Source: Leucobacter sp. Psy1 (GTDB taxonomy: Bacteria; Actinomycetota; Actinomycetes; Actinomycetales; Microbacteriaceae). From it: DNA of 64,000 nt. The stretch lies in contig NZ_CP083692.1 of assembly GCF_020096995.1 (NCBI RefSeq), positions 1,488,001 to 1,552,000 of the forward strand, written 5' to 3'. The translations under genes were made by a program, and so were the position numbers. The number at the start of each line of letters is the position of its first letter. The first letter of the stretch is position 1. The notes below the pieces were generated by a model. The model was not told where the DNA came from. It was given only the letters and a program-made list of their open reading frames with translations, and searched no databases. Below, one piece after another: positions 7,225 through 17,418 of the stretch.

Positions 7225-7638
7225 TTGATCACTGACGATCTGTACGACACCGGCCTGCGCCAGCGACGTGACATGTTCGGCCCCGAGGGTGCCGAGAACC
7301 AGGTCGAGCACACCACGGACCTCAACCACAAGCTGCAGGAGTTCGTCACCCGCACCTGCTTCGGCGACATCTGGCAGCGCGACGGACTCGTGCTCCAGGA
7401 GCGCAGCCGCATCACCTTCGCCATGCTCATCGCCCTCGGCAGCACGCACGAGCTCCGCATCCACGCCCGCGGCGCGCTCGCCAACGGGGTCACGCCGGTC
7501 GAGCTGCGCGAGATCGCGGTGCACTCGATCCTGTACTGCGGCATCCCTGCCGCCGTCGAGGGCCTCAGGGCGCTCGAAGAGGTCTTCGCGGAGCGCGGCG
7601 TCTCCCTCGAACTCGACGGGGAGGCCGGCCGTGCGTGA
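7225..7638 (+). CDS. Carboxymuconolactone decarboxylase-family protein (PcaC-like)
   Basis: A 137-residue all-helical protein. The stretch ERSRITFAMLIALGSTHELRIHARGALANGVTPVELREIAVHSILYCGIPAA is the standard CMD core, including the conserved His and the closing GIPAA. The AhpD-type CxxC pair is absent, favouring a decarboxylase-like role over a peroxidase. An AAAGGAG site precedes the start. True PcaC converts 4-carboxymuconolactone in the protocatechuate branch, but no pcaB/pcaD neighbours exist, so the real substrate may differ. It overlaps the next gene by 8 nt and heads an operon running to the aldehyde dehydrogenase. Confidence 0.85.
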   Translation: MITDDLYDTGLRQRRDMFGPEGAENQVEHTTDLNHKLQEFVTRTCFGDIWQRDGLVLQERSRITFAMLIALGSTHELRIHARGALANGVTPVELREIAVHSILYCGIPAAVEGLRALEEVFAERGVSLELDGEAGRA

Positions 7639-8521
7639 CACCGCCAGCACCCGGGTCGGCTTCATCGGCCTCGGCACCATGGGGGAGCCGATGGCGAACA
7701 ACATCGCCGCCTCCGGATCGTTCGACCTCGCCGTCTTCGACGTCGACGCGGCGCAGACGACGGTGGTTGCCGAGCGGATCGGCGCACGGCCGGTCACGGA
7801 CATCGCCGACCTGGCGGACCGCGACATCATCCTCACCATGCTGCCGACGAGTGCCATCGTCCGCAGCGCGCTGCTCGACGACACGGGCGCACCGCGCATC
7901 CCCGCCGCACCGGGCACCCTCTTCGTCGACATGAGTTCGTCCGACCCCTCCGAGACCACCGAGACGGGCGCACGGCTTCGCGAGGCGGGCTACGCCATGG
8001 TGGATGCTCCCGTCTCCGGTGCGCGCGAGCGCGCCATCGATGGCACGCTCGCGATCATGCTCGGCGCCGACGATGACGCTGCCGCGGAGCGCGCGATCCC
8101 CGTCATCGAGACAATGAGCGCCCAGATCTTCCGCACCGGCAGGCTCGGCACCGGCCATGCGATGAAGGCGCTCAACAACTTCGTCGCCGCTGCCGCGTTC
8201 ACGGCGGCCTCGGAGGCGCTCATCGCGGGAGCAGACTTCGGCCTCGACCCCGGCGTCATGGTCGATGTGCTCAACGCCTCGACGGGCCAGAGCTTCGTCA
8301 CCACCCACGTACTGCCAGACCACGTCGTCGGCGGGCAGTACGCCAGTGGGTTCGCGCTGCCGCTCTTCACGAAGGACGTGAGAGTGGCCCAGAGCGTGCA
8401 GCGCGCCGCCGGGCGCACGTCGCCCGTCTGCGACGCCGTGACCGGTGCGATGAGCGAGGCCCTCGAGGCGCTCGGCAACGTCGATCACACCCGCGCGGTC
8501 GAGTTCTGGCGGGAGAGGTAG
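7631..8521 (+). CDS. 3-Hydroxyisobutyrate dehydrogenase-family oxidoreductase
   Basis: A 296-residue beta-hydroxyacid dehydrogenase. The N-terminal Rossmann fold has GFIGLGTMGEPMANNI; the substrate motif DAPVSGARERAIDGTLAIMLG and the catalytic-lysine region GHAMKALNNFVAAAAF follow, and the C-terminus is the helical dimer domain with FTKDVRVAQ. The family oxidises or reduces small beta-hydroxyacids (hydroxyisobutyrate, tartronate semialdehyde, gamma-hydroxybutyrate). GTG at 7631 lies in the end of the PcaC-like gene and gives the exact family N-terminus; the frame is open further upstream but that part is antisense-like coding. Placed between a CMD protein and a TRAP importer, it likely acts on the imported compound. 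Confidence 0.9.
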   Translation: MRDTASTRVGFIGLGTMGEPMANNIAASGSFDLAVFDVDAAQTTVVAERIGARPVTDIADLADRDIILTMLPTSAIVRSALLDDTGAPRIPAAPGTLFVDMSSSDPSETTETGARLREAGYAMVDAPVSGARERAIDGTLAIMLGADDDAAAERAIPVIETMSAQIFRTGRLGTGHAMKALNNFVAAAAFTAASEALIAGADFGLDPGVMVDVLNASTGQSFVTTHVLPDHVVGGQYASGFALPLFTKDVRVAQSVQRAAGRTSPVCDAVTGAMSEALEALGNVDHTRAVEFWRER

Positions 8522-8527
8522 GACGTC

Positions 8528-9061
8528 ATGACAGAGCCCCGCTCGACCTTCGACCGCGTGCTTCAGAAGTGCAGCGCCGCCCTCGGCGTCGTCGCGGCGG
8601 GCAGCCTCGTGGTGCTCATGGTGGCGACCGTCGCCGACGTGCTCGTGCGCTGGATCACCCGGTCGAGCCTGCCAGGCATGATCGAGATCGCCGAGACCGC
8701 GCTTGTCGCCTCCGTGTTCCTCGGACTCGCGTGGACCTCGATCCAGGGCGGACACGTCGCCGTCACGATCGTCACCGATCGGATGCCGCCGCGGCTCGCC
8801 CGTGCGGTCTCGACGCTCGTCTGGGCGCTGAGCGCCGGCCTCCTCGCGTGGATGTCCGTCGCTCTCTTCGTCCGCGCGGCCCAGTCGACGAGCGCGAGCG
8901 AGACCCGCTTCGGTCTGGTGCAGTGGCCGATCTGGCCGATGCGCTGGATCATCGCCGTCGGCGTCGTGCTCTGGACGGTCGTCGCGGTCGTCAACCTCGT
9001 CCGCGCACTCCGCGGACGCACCCCGTACGGCGACGAGACCGAGGCGATGCTCGATGCCTGA
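8528..9061 (+). CDS. dctQ: TRAP transporter small permease (DctQ type)
   Basis: A 177-residue protein with four membrane helices (about 18-40, 52-70, 92-112, 132-155) and the DctQ motif EIAETALVASVFLGLAWTS. The small subunit pairs with DctM in the membrane to import organic acids on a sodium gradient. It lies 6 nt after the dehydrogenase gene and 39 nt before the large permease, in the usual Q-M-P order. Confidence 0.9.
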   Translation: MTEPRSTFDRVLQKCSAALGVVAAGSLVVLMVATVADVLVRWITRSSLPGMIEIAETALVASVFLGLAWTSIQGGHVAVTIVTDRMPPRLARAVSTLVWALSAGLLAWMSVALFVRAAQSTSASETRFGLVQWPIWPMRWIIAVGVVLWTVVAVVNLVRALRGRTPYGDETEAMLDA

Positions 9062-9100
9062 GACCCGGTCGCCGCTCGTCACTTCACCCGGAGGGTTCCC

Positions 9101-10597
9101 ATGCTCCTCACGATAATTGTCCTCACCATCGTCGTCCTGCTGCTCGTTCTGCTCATGATGCGGATGCCCGTTGCACTCTCGCTCGCGCTCTCGGGAGCGC
9201 TGGGGCTCGGGATCCTCCAGGGCACCGACTACGCCTCGAACGTGATGGGCTCGGTGCCGTTCAGTGCGACAGCGAGCTTCTCGCTCACCATCATCCCGAT
9301 GTTCATTCTCATGGGCATGTTTGCCATGCGCGCGAAGATCGCGGAGCACGTCTTCGCCGTCGCCAACCACATGGTGAGCCGGTTCCCCGGCGGCCTCGGC
9401 GTCGCGACGGTCATGGCCTGCGCCGGCTTCTCCGCGGTATCCGGCTCGAGCATCGGCACCGCGGCAACCATGTCGAAGCTCTCCGTCGGGCAGATGCGGG
9501 CGTACGGGTATCCTGCCGCTCTTGCGACCGGGATCGTGGCGATCGCCGGCACGCTCGGCGTTGTGATCCCGCCCAGCACGTTCCTCGTGCTGTACTCGAT
9601 CATGACGGGGGAGTCGGTGGCGCAGGTGCTCGCCGCCGGCATCATTCCCGGCCTGCTCTCCGCCCTCGGATACATCGTCTACATTCTCGTGATGGGGCAC
9701 CGCCAGATCGTCCGACCCGAGACGACACTCGCCGAGACCGTCTCCGATGCACACGCGTACGCCGCCGTGCGCGCGGGCGGTTCGGCCAGTGCAGCCGCCG
9801 GATCCGGCAACAGCAGCGCAGGCGCCGGCAACACCGGCCCAGGCCCCGGCATCGCCGCGCCGCTGCCCGCTGGCACGCCGAACACGGAAGCGGTGCAGCA
9901 GGTCTACGGGCGTACGCTGCGCACGCTCCCGTGGCGCGGACTCTTCCGCTTGTCGCTCATCTTCCTCATCATCCTGGGCGGCATGTTCTCCGGGATCTTC
10001 ACCTCGACCGAATCGGCGGCCATCGCCGCGTTCGTCGCCCTGGTGATCCTGATCTGGGAGTTCAGGCACGACGGGCTCAGCACGATCTGGAGCAACGTGA
10101 AGGGCGCGCTGCTCGATACGGCGCAGACGACGTCGATGGTGTTCATGATCCTCGTGGGGTCGACGATCTTCTCGACTTTCCTCATCGCGGCGCACGTGCC
10201 GGACACCGTGACGACGTGGGTGGCGGGGCTCGACGTGCCGCCGCTCCTCACGATCGGGTTGCTGCTCCTCTTCCTGCTCCCGCTCGGCACGGCGCTCGAC
10301 GAGATCTCGGTGCTCATCATCACGATCCCGATCATCTACCCGATCGCGATGGAGCTCGGCTTCAACGGGATCTGGCTCGGCCTCATGATCGTGAAGCTGA
10401 CCGCGATCGGCATGGTCACACCTCCCGTCGGCATGACCTGCTTCGTGGTCGCCGGAGCGACCGGGGTGCGCACCGAGACCGTCTTCAAGGGGGTCCTGCC
10501 GCTCATGCTCATGGACCTCGCGGTCTCGGCGATCCTGTTCTTCTTCCCGGCGATCACGCTCTTCCTGCCGTCACTCGTCGCGCAGGGAGCCGGCTAG
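9101..10597 (+). CDS. dctM: TRAP transporter large permease (DctM type)
   Basis: A 498-residue protein with about 12 membrane helices. Family marks include GSSIGTAATMSKLSVGQMRAYGY, GTLGVVIPPSTFLVLY and, in the second half, GTALDEISVLIITIPIIYPI and MVTPPVGMTCFV. It carries a low-complexity cytoplasmic linker of about 45 residues (about 222-268) rich in Gly, Ala, Ser, Asn and Pro, between the two halves; most DctM proteins are about 430 residues, and this linker accounts for the excess. It forms the translocation channel with DctQ. Confidence 0.92.
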   Translation: MLLTIIVLTIVVLLLVLLMMRMPVALSLALSGALGLGILQGTDYASNVMGSVPFSATASFSLTIIPMFILMGMFAMRAKIAEHVFAVANHMVSRFPGGLGVATVMACAGFSAVSGSSIGTAATMSKLSVGQMRAYGYPAALATGIVAIAGTLGVVIPPSTFLVLYSIMTGESVAQVLAAGIIPGLLSALGYIVYILVMGHRQIVRPETTLAETVSDAHAYAAVRAGGSASAAAGSGNSSAGAGNTGPGPGIAAPLPAGTPNTEAVQQVYGRTLRTLPWRGLFRLSLIFLIILGGMFSGIFTSTESAAIAAFVALVILIWEFRHDGLSTIWSNVKGALLDTAQTTSMVFMILVGSTIFSTFLIAAHVPDTVTTWVAGLDVPPLLTIGLLLLFLLPLGTALDEISVLIITIPIIYPIAMELGFNGIWLGLMIVKLTAIGMVTPPVGMTCFVVAGATGVRTETVFKGVLPLMLMDLAVSAILFFFPAITLFLPSLVAQGAG

Positions 10598-10703
10598 GCA
10601 AGCGCGTGCAGCCGAACAACACCGGGGCGTGCGCGAACTGCTGACCGACGTGCGCCCCTCACCAACCACGCGGCCGTGAGGCTGCAGAACAATCAGAAAT
10701 AGA

Positions 10704-10721
10704 CGCCTCGACGCCGAGGCG
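10704..10721 (+). other. Intercistronic hairpin between dctM and dctP
   Basis: The arms CGCCTCG (10704-10710) and CGAGGCG (10715-10721) pair around a 4-nt loop in the 144-nt gap between the permease and binding-protein genes. There is no T tract. Such hairpins often stabilise 3' ends or attenuate readthrough, letting the binding protein accumulate at a different level. A GAAAGGA site follows just before the dctP start. Confidence 0.4.
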
Positions 10722-10741
10722 GATCATCAGAAAGGACAACG

Positions 10742-11893
10742 ATGTTCTCGACATCTCATCGCCGGACTCGCGGCGGCCTCCGCACGAGCGGACTCGCCAT
10801 CGTCGCCGTCGCCGGCCTGGCCCTCACCGGATGCGCCGGCATCAACAACGCTTCGGGATCGGGTGACGCCGGCGGCGAAACCGTCACCTGGACGCTCGTC
10901 ACGGGCGCGCAGGCCGACACCCCGAACGCCGCAGTGCAGGACTGGTTCATGGACCGGGTGGAGGAGGAGACCGACGGTCGTCTCTCATTCGAGCGGACAG
11001 CCACGGAATCGCTCTGCAAGGCGCCCGAGGTCGCCGATTGCGTGCGCGACGGACGCGCGCAGATCGGGGTGACGGTGCCCGACTACACGCCGCAGTACTT
11101 CCCGTCCACGAGCATGGTGAGCATCCCGTTCCTGAGCCAGAACGCACAGGCGGCGATGCAGTCCATCTACGATCTGCACGAGAACTACGCGCCCGCGCAG
11201 GAGATCATGGAGCGCAACGGACTGCACCACGTCGCCACGTGGCCCGTCGGCCGCTTCCTGCTCGGCGGGCACGACCCGATCACGAGCACCGACCAGTTCC
11301 AGGGTGCGCAGGTGCGCGTCTCTGGCCCGATCATTCAGCAGGCGATCGGCGACGAGGGGGCGAACATCGTGGCGGTGACCGCTCCGGAGACCTACGAGTC
11401 GGTCGAGCGCGGGGTCGTCTCCGCGATCGGCGGCGCCATCGACTTCCCCGTGAACTACGGCCTGATGGAGCTGCTGCCCGAGTGGACCGACCCAGGCGTG
11501 GGGCAGTACTCGACCTTCGGCATGTGGGTGAACGCCGGCGCGTACGAGGATCTGCCAGACGACCTGCGCGAAGCACTCGATCGGGTGACCGAGGAGCTCA
11601 ACACGGGCGAGGGGATCGCCGCGTTCAACGAGGTCGCCGCGGGTCAGTGCGAGCAGATGCTCGAGGCCCCGACGGTGCGCTCGCTCAACGCGTGGGACGA
11701 GGAGCAGACCGCCGAGTGGCGCGACTCCCTCGGCGACACGGGCGAGCAGATGTGGGTCGATCTCGCCACGGAGCAGGGCCTCGACGACGCGCAGGGCGTG
11801 CTCGACGAGTACAAGGCCGGGCTCGAGACCTACGACGACGTCGCATACGACGACGCCACCGTTGCCTGCGTGACCTCCTTCGCCGACCGCTGA
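10742..11893 (+). CDS. dctP: TRAP transporter substrate-binding lipoprotein (DctP type)
   Basis: A 383-residue secreted receptor. The signal peptide ends in a lipobox LTGC (cysteine near residue 31), so it is a surface lipoprotein as expected in a Gram-positive cell. The DctP fold shows in WFMDRVEEETDGRLSFE, GRAQIGVTVPDYTP and the ligand-arginine region GAQVRVSGPIIQQAI. The Ser/Gly-rich segment after the lipobox is a tether. Its ligand is probably a carboxylate that feeds the flanking dehydrogenases; an aromatic or branched acid would fit the neighbourhood. Confidence 0.9.
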   Translation: MFSTSHRRTRGGLRTSGLAIVAVAGLALTGCAGINNASGSGDAGGETVTWTLVTGAQADTPNAAVQDWFMDRVEEETDGRLSFERTATESLCKAPEVADCVRDGRAQIGVTVPDYTPQYFPSTSMVSIPFLSQNAQAAMQSIYDLHENYAPAQEIMERNGLHHVATWPVGRFLLGGHDPITSTDQFQGAQVRVSGPIIQQAIGDEGANIVAVTAPETYESVERGVVSAIGGAIDFPVNYGLMELLPEWTDPGVGQYSTFGMWVNAGAYEDLPDDLREALDRVTEELNTGEGIAAFNEVAAGQCEQMLEAPTVRSLNAWDEEQTAEWRDSLGDTGEQMWVDLATEQGLDDAQGVLDEYKAGLETYDDVAYDDATVACVTSFADR

Positions 11894-11943
11894 GCCGCGC
11901 ACGCGCACCCCGAACCGAGACCAGAGGATCAGGAACCACCGTC

Positions 11944-13392
11944 ATGACGACCACCGAATCACCGACCACAGCAGCACCCACCACAACGCCGCCGAGCAAC
12001 CCACTGATCGACGCCATCACCGTCGATCCCGAGCAGGGCCGGGCGATCCAGGACGCCTCGAGCGGTGAGACGATCGGGTACGCCCCGGTTCACACGGTCG
12101 CCGACCTCGACGCGGCGGTCGGAGCCGCCCGTGCGGCGCAGACCGGCTGGGCCGCGCTCGGCCACGAGGAGCGCTCGCGCATCCTTCACCTCGCCGCAGA
12201 CGAGATCGACGCTCACGCCGAGGAGCTCGCCCGCATCATCGCGAGCGAGCAGGGCAAACCCCTGAACGGCGCGGGGGCCCGCTTCGAAGCCGCCGGGTGC
12301 GCCGTATGGGTGCGCAACGCCGCCGACACTGTCATCGAACCCGAGCTGCTGTTCGAAGCCGAGGGCACCCGGTCCGAGCTCCACTACGTGCCGCTCGGCG
12401 TGGTCGCCGCAATCGGCCCGTGGAATTGGCCGGCGCTCATCGGTATCTGGCAGATCGCGCCGTCCCTCCGCATGGGGAACGCGGTGGTCGTCAAGCCGAG
12501 CAGCTCGACGCCGCTGAGCGTGCTCGCGGTCGTCGAGCTCATGAACCGGCACCTCCCTGACGACGTGCTGACCGTCGTGTCTGGCAACCGGGAGGTCGGT
12601 GCGCGGATCGCCGGGCACCCCCGCATCGACAAGGTCATGTTCACCGGCTCCACCGAGACCGGCCGCGAGATCGTGCGGAACTCCGCCGACAACCTCGCGC
12701 GCCTGACTCTGGAGCTCGGCGGCAACGACCCGGGCATCGTGCTCCCCGGCGCGAAAGCGTCGGAGATCGCCGAGGCGCTCTTCTGGGGCATCTTCATCAA
12801 CACCGGGCAGACCTGCGCCGCATTGAAGCGGCTCTACGTCCACGAGTCGGTGCACGACGACGTGGTCGCGGCTCTGGTCTCACTCGCGGAGTCCGTGCCG
12901 ATGGGGCCCGGTGCCGACGAGGAGAATCTGCTCGGCCCGCTGACGACCCCGCAGCAGTTCGACATCGTCAGCAGGCTCGTCGACGATGCGCGGCAACGCG
13001 GCGCGACCGTCGTCACCGGTGGCGAGGCGGCGCCAGAGCTCGGCCCGCGCTTCTACCGCACGACCATCGTGACGGACATCAGCGATGGCGCCGACCTCGT
13101 CGAGGAGGAGCAGTTCGGCCCCGTCATCCCGGTGATCCGCTACACCGACCTCGACGATGCGGTGGCCCGCGCGAACGCCTCCGACCAGGGCCTCGGAGCT
13201 TCGGTGTGGGGCGATCCAGCCGAGGCGCGTCGTGTTGCCGACCGCCTGGAGGCCGGCACCGTCTGGATCAACCAGCACGGCACCCTCAATCCCATGGTGC
13301 CGTTCGGCGGTGTCAAGGCGTCGGGGTACGGCCTCGAGTTCGGCGCGCACGGCCTCAAGTCGGTGGCGGCGCCGAAGGTGATCACGGTCTAA
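11944..13392 (+). CDS. NAD(P)-dependent aldehyde dehydrogenase
   Basis: A 482-residue ALDH-superfamily enzyme. The catalytic cysteine is in NTGQTCAALKR, the general-base glutamate in LELGGNDP, the cofactor lysine in VVKPSSSTP and the Rossmann glycine in FTGSTETGREI. It starts with a Thr/Pro-rich 20-residue tail at ATG 11944; upstream the frame stays open but reads through the dctP region. It is last in the TRAP operon and its stop overlaps the convergent LysR stop by 3 nt. It probably oxidises an aldehyde made from the imported substrate or by the adjacent P450. Confidence 0.92.
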   Translation: MTTTESPTTAAPTTTPPSNPLIDAITVDPEQGRAIQDASSGETIGYAPVHTVADLDAAVGAARAAQTGWAALGHEERSRILHLAADEIDAHAEELARIIASEQGKPLNGAGARFEAAGCAVWVRNAADTVIEPELLFEAEGTRSELHYVPLGVVAAIGPWNWPALIGIWQIAPSLRMGNAVVVKPSSSTPLSVLAVVELMNRHLPDDVLTVVSGNREVGARIAGHPRIDKVMFTGSTETGREIVRNSADNLARLTLELGGNDPGIVLPGAKASEIAEALFWGIFINTGQTCAALKRLYVHESVHDDVVAALVSLAESVPMGPGADEENLLGPLTTPQQFDIVSRLVDDARQRGATVVTGGEAAPELGPRFYRTTIVTDISDGADLVEEEQFGPVIPVIRYTDLDDAVARANASDQGLGASVWGDPAEARRVADRLEAGTVWINQHGTLNPMVPFGGVKASGYGLEFGAHGLKSVAAPKVITV

Positions 13393-14312
13393 GCCGCACC
13401 CCAGTCCAGTCCCCGCGCGAACCCGATGAGTGCTCGGGTGCGCGCGGGGACCGGCCGGTTCGGGGCCCAGATCATGTCGATCGCGACCGGCCTGACGGGC
13501 GGTTGGATGGGCTTCGCGACGAGCGGGAGCCCCTCGTAGCTCCGCGGATTCGCGACGCGCGAGACGAGGATCCCGTACCCGAGTCCGCGTGCGACGAGCG
13601 TGCGGACCACCTCGTAGCTCGAGGTGCGGTGCCGCACCCGCGGAGTGAGCCCCTGCGCGGCGAAGACCGAGAGGGTGTGCTCGCTCGACGGGGGAGCGTC
13701 GAGGAGGATGAGGTCGTCGTCCACGAGGTCGGCGAGCCTGACCGTGTCGCGATCCGCGAGCGGGTGATCGGCGGCCAGCACCACGTGCGCGGGGAATGCC
13801 GCGAGCTGCACCCGCTCGGTCTCGGGCGATACGAGCATGTCGTAGACGAACGCGACGTCGACACGTCCCTCCGCGATGTCGTCGGCGAGCTGATCTTGCG
13901 TCGCCTCACGGATCGTGAGATCGACCTGCGGGTGCTCGGCACCGAACTCTCGGAGCAGTCGCGGCAGCACGGTCGGGGCGAGAGTCGGGTAGCACCCGAT
14001 CACGATGGGCCCAGAGAGCGTGTCGGTGCCGCCGACGGCGCGGGCGAGTTCGTCGGCCTCGGCGAGCATGCGCCGAGCGTGGGCCACGACCCGATCGCCG
14101 CTCGGGGTGAGCGTGAGGCCGTGCGCGCGCCGGCGGACGCACAGCTGCTCCCGCATGGCCGTCTCGAGCTCGGTGATCGCGTCGGAGAGCGCCGAGGGTG
14201 AAACGTTGAGCCGGGTCGCGGCTCCCGCAACCGTCCCGGAGTCAGCCGCCGCGACGAGGTAGGCCAGCTGCTTCAGAGTGAACGCGGGGACGGGGCGGGC
14301 GACGATGCTCAT
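13389..14312 (-). CDS. LysR-family transcriptional regulator
   Basis: A LysR protein of 307 residues from the ATG at 14312 (a TTG at 14327 would add five). The N-terminal HTH reads LKQLAYLVAAADSGTVAGAATRLNVSPSALSDAI; the effector domain starts near residue 90 with GPIVIGCYPTLAP and contains the usual beta-alpha repeats. GGAG lies very close to the ATG, so the TTG start cannot be excluded. It is divergent from the P450 fusion gene with a 112-nt gap and is the obvious candidate for its control. Confidence 0.88.
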   Translation of the reverse strand: MSIVARPVPAFTLKQLAYLVAAADSGTVAGAATRLNVSPSALSDAITELETAMREQLCVRRRAHGLTLTPSGDRVVAHARRMLAEADELARAVGGTDTLSGPIVIGCYPTLAPTVLPRLLREFGAEHPQVDLTIREATQDQLADDIAEGRVDVAFVYDMLVSPETERVQLAAFPAHVVLAADHPLADRDTVRLADLVDDDLILLDAPPSSEHTLSVFAAQGLTPRVRHRTSSYEVVRTLVARGLGYGILVSRVANPRSYEGLPLVAKPIQPPVRPVAIDMIWAPNRPVPARTRALIGFARGLDWGAA

Positions 14313-14321
14313 ATCTCCATT

Positions 14322-14341
14322 ATTCAACGTTTCCGATGAAT
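14322..14341. promoter_or_regulatory. Candidate LysR operator between lysR and the P450 gene
   Basis: An inverted repeat ATTCA (14322-14326) and TGAAT (14337-14341) with a 10-nt spacer lies right upstream of the regulator, in a short AT-richer gap. Position suits LysR autoregulation, but the arms are short and such a match can occur by chance. Confidence 0.3.
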
Positions 14342-14424
14342 CAGAACGACTAATTCCGCTTTTCTATCCGTTTGCCACGCTCCATACTCGGATCAACACC
14401 AATGGAGTTGTGAGGAAGACCACG

Positions 14425-17418
14425 ATGAGTACCGAAGCACCGATCGCCGACTGGGTGACGATTCCCGATCTGTACCGCGATCCGTTCCCGATCTACGAAC
14501 GCCTCCGCGCCGAGGGCGGCGTCCACTGGGTGCCGAGCGTCAACCGCTACCTCGTCACCTCGTACGCGGCGGTCCACGAGACCGAGCTCGACCAGGAGGT
14601 CTTCTCGGCCGACGAGGAGGGCTCGCTGCAGATCCGGGCGATGGGGCATTCGATGCTCCGCCGCGACGACCCGGAGCACTACATCGAGCGCAAGGCCTGG
14701 CAGCCGGCCCTCCGCCCGGGAGCGGTGCAGCGGGTGTGGAAGGCGAAGTTCCAGCGCAACGCCGAGCGATACCTTGAGGAACTCATCGCGAAGGGCCCCG
14801 GAGCCGATCTCGTCTGGGACTTCGCGGCGCCCTTCGCGGCAGAGAGCCTGCGAGAGCTCATCGGCCTCCACAACGCGACCCAACAGGATCTGCAGCGCTG
14901 GTCGCAGACCATGATCGATGCGACCGGCAACTACGCCGACGACCCCGAGGTGTGGGCGCTCGGCAAGCAGTCGTTCGACGAGGTGGACGTCGCGCTCGAC
15001 GAGATGCTCACCTGGCACGCCGCGAACCCCAACGAGTCGCTGCTCTCCCAACTGCTGCAGATTCCCGACTACCGGATGCCGCTCGAGCGGATCCGCGCGA
15101 ACGTCAAGATGACGATCGGCGGCGGCCTGAACGAACCCCGAGATGCCCTGGGTGTGGCGGCGTGGGGACTCCTCTCGCATCCGGAGCAGCGGGCGGCGGT
15201 CGAGGCAGATCCCACCCTCTGGAACGCGGCGTTCGACGAGACGATCCGCTGGGTCGCCCCCATCGGCCTGTACTCGCGCCAGGTGAAGCGCGACACGGAA
15301 CTCGCCGGTGTCCGGCTGCCTGCAGGCGCGCGGCTCGGGATCTGCATCCTCTCGGCGAACCGGGATGAGCGGGTGTGGGAGGATCCGGATCGCTTCGACG
15401 TGCGCCGGGAAGTGAAGCCGCACCTCGCGTTCGGCAAGGGCGTGCACGTGTGCCTGGGGGCCTGGGCGGCGCGCGCCGAGGTCGCTGAGGTCGCCCTCCC
15501 GCTGCTGTTCTCCTCGCTCGAGGGACTCGCGCTCACGGATGAGGATCCGGCGGAGATCGGCGGCTGGGTGTTCCGTGGCATGACGAAGCTGCCGGTCACC
15601 TGGACGGGCCGCCGTACCGGTGCGACGGGATCGCCGGCTGCGCAGGCGGCGCCCGCTCCGCGCATCGCGATCGTCGGATCGGGGCCGTCCGGCTGCTTCT
15701 CGGCGCAGGCGCTGCGCCGCACGTTCCCGGCGTCGCCGATCGAGGTCTTCGACGAACTGCCGACGCCCTACGGTCTCGTCCGCTACGGCGTGGCCGCCGA
15801 TCACCAGGGCACGAAAGCCGTCGCCCGCCAGTTCGATCGGCTCTTCAGCGCCGAGGATGTGCGTTTCCGCGGCAATGTCCGCCTCGGAGCGGACGTCACC
15901 CTGCGCGAACTGGAGGACGCGTACGACATCGTCGTGCTCGCGACGGGACTGCACGCTGATGCGCCGCTCACCGTCCCGGGAGCGGAGCCGGGAAGTCAGC
16001 TGAGTCGGGTGCGCGGGGCGGGCGAGGTGACCCGTTTTCTCAACGGGTACCCCGACGCGGCTGAGCCGGAGCCGCTCGGGGAGCGGGTCGTCATCGTGGG
16101 CCACGGCAACGTCGCGATGGATCTCGCGCGCATCATCGCCCGCGACGCGGCGGGCTTCGCGGGTTCAGACATCGACGACGCCGCGCACCGGCGGTTCACC
16201 GAGCGGGTGCAGACGATCCACCTGCTCGGGCGAAGCGGCGCGCCAGAGGCGAAGTTCGACCCCGTGATGGTGCGCGAGCTCGCCGGACTGCCGGGGGTGG
16301 CGCACCGAGTGCACGGTGCGGGTGAGCTCCCGAGCGATGGACGCGACGCCCGCGTCGACGCGGTGCGCGAGCTGACCCGATCCGAGGTCGTCGATCCGCG
16401 CGTCACTATCGAGTGGTGGTTCGGTGCGACGCCGCTGGCGATCACGGGTGTGGACGCGGTCACGGCCGTCGAGGTGCGCTGCGCGGACGGCGACGAGCGG
16501 CTCCCAGCAGACGATGTCATCACCGCGATCGGTTTCACGGGCGAAGCGGATGCCTCGCGTGAGCTGCAGCCGGGAGCGCACCCCGACGGACGCATCGCGG
16601 CGGGGCTCTACACGGCGGGCTGGTTGCGGCGCGGCCCGCGCGGCACGATCCCCGATCAGCGCACCGACGCGAGAGAGCTCGCGCAGAAGATCGTCGCCGA
16701 TCTGCAGTCGGGCGCGGTGACGACGACGGCTCCGGGACTGCCGCCGCTTGCGACGGAGATCGGTTTCGAGGGGTGGCGACGCATTGATCTTCGCGAGCGC
16801 CTGACGGCGGCGCCGGGCCGCGAGCGAACGAAGCTCGCGACTCGCGCGGCGCAGCTCGAGGCTGCAGCGGATGCGACCCTGGAGCTGCCGCCGCTGCCTG
16901 ACGACGCGGTGGGAGCCAACGGCGACGGCTTCAGCCCCGGCATCGGCACGACGGTGCTCTTCGGCACGGAGTCGGGCGGTGCAGAACTCGTCGCGGAGGA
17001 GCTGCGACGGCTCTTCAGCGATGACGCCGATGTCGAGGTGCGCGACCTCGGCGAGACGAGTGTTGGCGACCTCGACGCCGAGCGCCTGCACCTGCTCGTG
17101 TGTTCGACTTACGGTGACGGCGAGGTGCCCACGGCCGCCAGGCCGTTCCTCGCCGAGCTCGGTGCAGAGCAGCCCGACCTCGCGGGGCTCCGGTTCGCGG
17201 TGTTCGGCATGGGGGACCGCAGCTACGACCGCACGTACTCGCGCGGCAGCGAGCTCATCGCCGAGGCGTTGCGGGCGTGCGGGGCGGCCCAAGTGGGGGA
17301 GTACGGTCGGCACGACGCGGGCGGCCCGATCCCGGCGGCCGAGGCGGCGCGCGAGTGGGTGACGGGGGTGTTCGCGGCGCTGCCCTCACCGGAGCTGCCG
17401 TCGCCGGCACGCGGCTGA
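14425..17418 (+). CDS. Self-contained cytochrome P450 / adrenodoxin-reductase-like / flavodoxin fusion
   Basis: A 997-residue three-domain monooxygenase. Residues 1-395 are a P450: ExxR at E272-R275, heme ligand Cys343 in FGKGVHVCLGAW, and an I-helix reading GGGLNEPRD (232-240) without the usual acid-alcohol pair. The ending GGWVFRGMTKLPVTW and the I-helix Glu-Pro resemble CYP255/GcoA aryl-ether demethylases. Residues 412-800 are an FAD/NADPH ferredoxin reductase of adrenodoxin-reductase type (IVGSGPSG; GHGNVAMDLARI). Residues 841-997 are a flavodoxin (FGTESGGAEL, STYGDGEVP, FGMGDRSYD). Electrons would pass NADPH-FAD-FMN-heme. A clear GAGGAAG site supports this start. A Pro/Ala linker joins the first two domains. 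Confidence 0.9.
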   Translation: MSTEAPIADWVTIPDLYRDPFPIYERLRAEGGVHWVPSVNRYLVTSYAAVHETELDQEVFSADEEGSLQIRAMGHSMLRRDDPEHYIERKAWQPALRPGAVQRVWKAKFQRNAERYLEELIAKGPGADLVWDFAAPFAAESLRELIGLHNATQQDLQRWSQTMIDATGNYADDPEVWALGKQSFDEVDVALDEMLTWHAANPNESLLSQLLQIPDYRMPLERIRANVKMTIGGGLNEPRDALGVAAWGLLSHPEQRAAVEADPTLWNAAFDETIRWVAPIGLYSRQVKRDTELAGVRLPAGARLGICILSANRDERVWEDPDRFDVRREVKPHLAFGKGVHVCLGAWAARAEVAEVALPLLFSSLEGLALTDEDPAEIGGWVFRGMTKLPVTWTGRRTGATGSPAAQAAPAPRIAIVGSGPSGCFSAQALRRTFPASPIEVFDELPTPYGLVRYGVAADHQGTKAVARQFDRLFSAEDVRFRGNVRLGADVTLRELEDAYDIVVLATGLHADAPLTVPGAEPGSQLSRVRGAGEVTRFLNGYPDAAEPEPLGERVVIVGHGNVAMDLARIIARDAAGFAGSDIDDAAHRRFTERVQTIHLLGRSGAPEAKFDPVMVRELAGLPGVAHRVHGAGELPSDGRDARVDAVRELTRSEVVDPRVTIEWWFGATPLAITGVDAVTAVEVRCADGDERLPADDVITAIGFTGEADASRELQPGAHPDGRIAAGLYTAGWLRRGPRGTIPDQRTDARELAQKIVADLQSGAVTTTAPGLPPLATEIGFEGWRRIDLRERLTAAPGRERTKLATRAAQLEAAADATLELPPLPDDAVGANGDGFSPGIGTTVLFGTESGGAELVAEELRRLFSDDADVEVRDLGETSVGDLDAERLHLLVCSTYGDGEVPTAARPFLAELGAEQPDLAGLRFAVFGMGDRSYDRTYSRGSELIAEALRACGAAQVGEYGRHDAGGPIPAAEAAREWVTGVFAALPSPELPSPARG

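Follow-up and report, generated by a model that had tools for sequence, protein, structure and literature searches.

A single gene in the window, a 64,000-nucleotide stretch of the Leucobacter sp. Psy1 genome, encodes a cytochrome P450, an adrenodoxin-reductase-type (AdR) domain and a flavodoxin (Fld) in one chain. The explanation that we consider quite probable from sequence comparison is that the product would be a self-sufficient P450 of an unnamed layout, that it would O-demethylate methoxy-aromatic acids and that it would have originated in Micrococcales through a swap of ferredoxin for flavodoxin and fusion. We hold it moderately likely that such fusions make up an unclassified self-sufficient class, born once in Micrococcales by chain exchange and fusion, with the regulator and the P450 motifs left unchanged.

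Table 1. Features of the fusion locus (window positions; aa, residues of the fusion protein).
Feature	Position	Strand	Remarks
LysR-type regulator, divergent	13389..14327	-	homologue at 27/28 fused and 9/9 ferredoxin-type genome_contigs loci
Divergent promoter region, 97 bases	14328..14424	.	search for a LysR box found just one 6-bp inverted repeat
P450-AdR-Fld fusion gene	14425..17418	+	one frame, 997 aa plus stop
P450 domain, aa 1-395, CYP1232A-like	14425..15609	+	61.9% identity to PDB 6g71
Haem Cys343 of P450 domain	15451-15453	+	with ExxR E272/R275 and I-helix GGGLNEP
Linker 1, aa 394-411	15604..15657	+	length 16-44 aa in 27 relatives
FAD/NAD(P)H reductase domain, adrenodoxin-reductase fold, aa about 412-814	15658..16866	+	GSGPSG, GHGNVAMD, GRS604
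Linker 2, aa 815-842	16867..16950	+	length 22-34 aa in 27 relatives
Flavodoxin domain, aa about 843-985	16951..17379	+	nearest solved sequence is cindoxin 4oxx

The fusion protein and known P450 systems

The initial annotation described one unbroken 997-residue frame with a P450, an AdR-type reductase and a flavodoxin, and this is what the plus strand encodes at 14425-17418. The haem-cysteine motif around C343, the GSGPSG and GHGNVAMD motifs of the reductase and the flavodoxin domain that it listed are all present, and the motifs are conserved in relatives: cofactor motifs are invariant across 27 complete fusions, whereas both linkers vary in length. Each of the three domains evolves under purifying selection, with dN/dS values relative to the L. 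tardus copy of 0.054 (P450), 0.119 (AdR) and 0.105 (Fld); the values for the two linkers, 0.40 and 0.76, are rough figures since the linkers are short. No Fer2 domain was matched in the protein at E 0.001, a Flavodoxin_1 domain being found there instead. AdR and P450 chains take up the list of structures nearest to the fusion, which is therefore uninformative on the flavodoxin part.

The reductase domain matches FprA and AdR. Alignments place an R-R pair of bovine AdR and FprA at residues 603-604 of the fusion, and the second arginine of this pair helps bind the 2'-phosphate of NADPH. R-S occupies the position in all 31 fused rows and, among 29 rows of separate reductases, in 22, XplB (L060) included; R-G is found in two separate rows (L061, L074), and five Gordonia rows, which lack an adjacent flavodoxin gene, keep R-R. 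Given the R-S motif and the assay of XplB with NADH recorded in the available part of PMC8081977, NADPH is not to be assumed as the coenzyme of the fusion reductase.

According to the accessible text of a 2024 review of P450 classes I-X, a full reductase chain is carried only by classes VII and VIII, and one partner by classes V and VI (PMC11173547); the accessible text of a 2025 paper names fusion for classes VII and VIII (PMC12126322). Reviews, as far as their available portions go, count two main one-chain classes, CYP102 and CYP116B, plus P450chc, which has the order Fd-FAD-P450 (PMC9687028). The P450-AdR-Fld layout fits none of the classes, nor P450chc, as these sources describe them in the portions available (PMC11173547, PMC9687028). 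The earlier suggestion of a new self-sufficient class is supported in part; the order belongs to a recurrent, widespread clade, apparently of single origin, and is no single oddity.

As in CYP102 (P450 BM3, class VIII), the P450 comes first in one chain that also carries FAD and FMN. The reductase of CYP102 is of the CPR type, with an FMN domain followed by an FNR-type FAD domain, whereas the FAD domain of the fusion matches FprA/AdR and stands before the flavodoxin. CYP116B (class VII) and P450chc also join P450 and redox domains in one chain but, by the excerpts available, use a [2Fe-2S] domain (PMC11173547 and PMC9687028, respectively); the fusion has neither the FMN reductase plus [2Fe-2S] domain of the former nor the domain order of the latter. 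The class VI pair of Gordonia KTR9 plasmid pGKT2 resembles the fusion in its AdR-type R-S reductase, XplB, and in the joining of flavodoxin to P450 in XplA; unlike in the fusion, this flavodoxin precedes the P450 in the chain and XplB is a separate gene. The P450 of P450cin (class III) presumably belongs to another family. The route from FAD reductase through FMN flavodoxin to P450 is common to P450cin and the fusion, which by sequence has the AdR-type reductase and flavodoxin donors of class III, and cindoxin is nearest to the fused flavodoxin; P450cin, cindoxin reductase and cindoxin are, however, three separate proteins in the available text of PMC9687028, and the fusion is one frame.

The structure nearest to the P450 domain is PDB 6g71, titled CYP1232A24 from Arthrobacter (61.9% identity over 391 columns). 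Over 55% P450 identity denotes the same subfamily in CYP nomenclature, which places the domain in CYP1232A. CYP1232A24 is sister to the fused clade or among it, and the part of PMC9687028 that we could access describes flavodoxin and flavodoxin reductase genes in the clusters of the Arthrobacter P450s of Klenk 2019, that of CYP1232A24 included; here, the partners are separate genes as described, and the P450 has 405 residues as deposited. No description of a P450-AdR-Fld protein and no use of the word CYP1232 were found in the open-access papers searched, outside which most subscription papers lie. By the usual numbering in CYP nomenclature, the "24" of CYP1232A24 suggests that many members of the subfamily are already named, perhaps with fused ones among them.

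Distribution and origin of the fusion

Complete fusions recur in Leucobacter, Brevibacterium, Microbacterium, Gulosibacter, Zimmermannella, Pseudoglutamicibacter and other Micrococcales. The genome collections searched overlap, and counts from different ones are not additive. A scan of genome_contigs gave 49 loci, 26 of them with all three domains in one ORF (in the six genera just named, an Agrococcus MAG and a Subtercola MAG); two further fused loci are cut by the contig end (L028) or carry a frame break (L029). The remaining loci consist of nine with a stand-alone P450, from Arthrobacter, Paeniglutamicibacter, Glutamicibacter and a Micrococcaceae MAG; five from Rhodobacterales, where AdR and Fld are a pair of genes; and seven with AdR or Fld matches only. 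Within Leucobacter, 13 of 37 genomes match in one piece over almost the whole fusion length; three (G005, G007, G036) match in pieces, yet inside one open frame, and the locus of G028 has a frame break. Near-full-length matches were found in 10 of 396 genomes of an even sample of the order, host included (the copy of G232 has an internal stop), and in the host alone (E 1e-90) among 396 genomes of a phylum sample.

A close P450 is present in 70 of 395 Micrococcaceae genomes. The best 30 of these 70 loci comprise 16 with P450 and AdR in one frame and 14 with a P450 adjoining a ferredoxin gene; longer fetches of the 16 revealed the flavodoxin in the same frame in 15, the 16th ending with its contig. 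The 40 weaker genomes were judged by frame length and not by neighbours. Eight plasmid records cover at least 80% of the query, and all four regions inspected have separate genes. Stand-alone AdR-Fld two-domain fusions were considered as an intermediate and rejected, since the DNA reads as separate neighbouring genes. Neither the best 30 Micrococcaceae loci nor the 49 genome_contigs loci include a CYP1232-type P450 with unfused AdR and Fld genes as neighbours.

Fused members form one clade in the P450 tree (32 rows, support 100/99; P450s under 40% identity left out), in the AdR tree (31 rows, 100/99) and in the Fld tree (31 rows, 99/96). The trees were midpoint-rooted for drawing and built without L001-L008, L077 and L079 (row copies or same-genus copies) and without rows covering less than 60% of the domain. 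In a larger P450 tree with 6g71 and more Micrococcaceae (71 rows after removal of identical ones; L078, L081 and the fused copy of L067 omitted), support was 91/80 for the fused members (45 rows), 100/98 for these plus 6g71 and 99/95 for a ferredoxin-type Micrococcaceae clade (19 rows). Joining 6g71 to the ferredoxin clade was rejected in a topology test (p 0.006); placing it among the Micrococcaceae fusions was not (p 0.33). With the latter value and the 91/80 support, 6g71 could be either a later split of the fusion or a stage between ferredoxin-type P450s and the fusion.

The simplest reading of the domain trees would be a single fusion event, coincident with or after the exchange of the ferredoxin chain for a flavodoxin chain. 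A Micrococcales P450 with separate [2Fe-2S] ferredoxin and reductase would have taken up the flavodoxin chain and been fused to it, a direction suggested by the fact that more distant relatives are also of the ferredoxin type.

Redox partners and self-sufficiency

The partner genes of the stand-alone relatives are of the ferredoxin type, which is reported here as new. A [2Fe-2S] ferredoxin gene adjoins all 16 relatives with P450 identity of at least 40%, including two Leucobacter paralogues and four plasmids of Rhodococcus, Agrobacterium and Sinorhizobium; a ferredoxin reductase gene adjoins 14, the exceptions being L035 (contig end) and L081. The partners at L034 are a Fer2 protein and a Pyr_redox_2/Reductase_C protein closest to HcaD, below the cut-off of that model. 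In annotated plasmid records, P450, 2Fe-2S protein and FAD-dependent oxidoreductase genes are consecutive and adjoin a LysR gene. The fused clade seems to have exchanged the ferredoxin chain for a flavodoxin chain joined to the P450 while keeping the LysR regulator.

Lysine 338, five residues before the haem cysteine, occurs in every one of the 45 fused rows and in 6g71 (46/46), and in none of 25 ferredoxin-type rows. As a general flavodoxin-docking mark it was rejected: among 15 loci with other P450s near AdR/Fld genes, the 12 with a haem-loop pattern have G (9), L (2) or V (1) at this site, L060 being counted by XplA, while L058, L062 and L065 gave no match to the pattern.

Both types of electron supply lie side by side in one genome, G016, where the neighbour of the fusion is a paralogue P450 of the ferredoxin type (45%) that has a ferredoxin and a reductase of its own (L067:2416-9470). 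In Leucobacter genomes and two others of the order (L062-L065, L069-L073, L075, L076), a second, divergent P450, 27-29% identical to the window P450, has separate AdR and flavodoxin genes as neighbours. Rhodococcus pyridinivorans plasmid pA carries consecutive P450, FAD reductase and flavodoxin genes in the order of the fusion (L058:2923-5944), the P450 being distant (24%). Most of the AdR/flavodoxin gene pairs of Rhodobacterales at L044, L046-L049, L086 and L087 are preceded by an aldehyde dehydrogenase gene; no P450 relative was detected in the stretches around them.

The chain holds a P450 together with all redox domains, as a self-sufficient P450 does. NAD(P)H would reduce the FAD of the middle domain, which would hand electrons singly to the FMN of the C-terminal flavodoxin; flexible linkers would let this domain approach the N-terminal P450 from its proximal side and reduce the haem.

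Indirect support for self-sufficiency comes from the host genome. Flanked by the divergent LysR gene and opposite-strand genes, the fusion gene has no neighbour on its own strand and no partner gene beside it at the window locus, and its Flavodoxin_1 domain is the only one in the genome. A ferredoxin of the stand-alone type was not found in the host by a query that matches three of three control genomes. Of the 17 Leucobacter genomes with a fusion, 14 were searched (all but G007, G028 and G036), and this ferredoxin is present in four and absent from 10 of them. The host has six weak matches to the L034 reductase and five Fer2 domains, which are of kinds other than that ferredoxin; one of them is located some 0.8 kb away from a second P450 match. 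This region (G000:C1:2853418-2855861), the only other Pfam p450 match of the host, is flanked by an HpaD-like dioxygenase match and a Fer2 domain and is possibly a GcoAB-like set.

Several other explanations have to be weighed. An artefact of sequencing or frame, with two proteins made in nature, is an extremely improbable explanation of the fusion. The frame is indeed interrupted between P450 and reductase at L029:9150-9300 and L078:2990-3200, the latter perhaps through assembly, since the linker end of L078 resembles what we take to be a transposase sequencing adapter; however, the one-frame counts given above for genome_contigs (26/28) and Micrococcaceae (15/16) speak against an artefact, contig ends accounting for L028 and for the 16th Micrococcaceae locus. 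We regard it as very unlikely that the fused reductase is dispensable or serves another acceptor while outside ferredoxins or flavodoxins feed the P450. The five Fer2 domains of the host and the four ferredoxin-bearing Leucobacter genomes would suit such a scheme, but purifying selection acts on all three domains, the host has neither that ferredoxin nor another Flavodoxin_1, and in two of the four genomes (G016 and G005) the ferredoxin adjoins a separate ferredoxin-type paralogue P450. Electrons might also pass mainly between the chains of a dimer, fusion setting stoichiometry and local concentration. The short and variable linkers fit this arrangement, as does the dimeric action of P450 BM3 stated in the available text of PMC9687028; a structure model gives no trusted domain geometry, and we consider the arrangement unlikely.

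Putative substrate and implications

The substrate is likely a methoxy-aromatic acid. CYP1232A24 reportedly takes part in papaverine breakdown by demethylating homovanillic acid to 3,4-dihydroxyphenylacetate, and demethylation of methoxy-aromatic acids is presumably a trait of the subfamily. After CYP1232A24, the structures nearest to the P450 domain are GcoA and SyoA, at 25-29% identity; the I-helix reads Q-E-P in GcoA versus N-E-P in the fusion, and GcoB, the partner of GcoA, is to our understanding of another type than the fusion reductase. Several P450 motifs are largely common to fused and ferredoxin-type members, and the Rhodococcus ferredoxin-type relatives adjoin fumarylacetoacetate hydrolase and carboxymuconolactone decarboxylase genes; L082 also adjoins a gene annotated as protocatechuate 3,4-dioxygenase. 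The P450 would convert a small methoxylated aromatic acid of the homovanillate type to a catechol and formaldehyde, with expression under the divergent LysR regulator.

Neighbours other than the LysR gene are too poorly conserved to fix the substrate. A metabolite/H+ symporter lies near a number of loci, near but below the TIGR00883 cut-off in the three checked. TRAP transporter, hydroxyacid dehydrogenase and aldehyde dehydrogenase genes precede the LysR gene in the window (7268-13392, plus strand); a near-identical set is present in L. tardus and L. chironomi, and in L. celer without the hydroxyacid dehydrogenase, which falls outside that locus. Near-identical TRAP and aldehyde dehydrogenase genes occur at three other fused loci only (L009, L010, L027). 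HpaD, matched in 51 of 60 relatives, was rejected as a substrate test because it is over the cut-off in 35 of 37 Leucobacter genomes as well as in the host, and its presence says nothing on the substrate.

It is conceivable, if doubtful, that the self-sufficient enzyme hydroxylates or oxidises some other substrate. The rarity of the upstream TRAP and aldehyde dehydrogenase genes among fused loci and the uninformative HpaD result leave room for this, but the 62% identity to CYP1232A24, the O-demethylase activity of the next structural neighbours, GcoA and SyoA, and the P450 motifs common to ferredoxin-type relatives in aromatic clusters point to methoxy-aromatic acids.

Self-sufficient P450s are prized catalysts. 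If the explanation favoured here, a self-sufficient methoxy-aromatic O-demethylase, is true, an AdR-flavodoxin chain would extend their range by another reductase fold and another order of domains, probably for lignin-type aromatics. Since the ferredoxin-using sisters are about 60% identical, the change of redox partner can be tested by swaps and point mutants, and the surviving sisters would represent a natural before-and-after pair for redox-partner switching.
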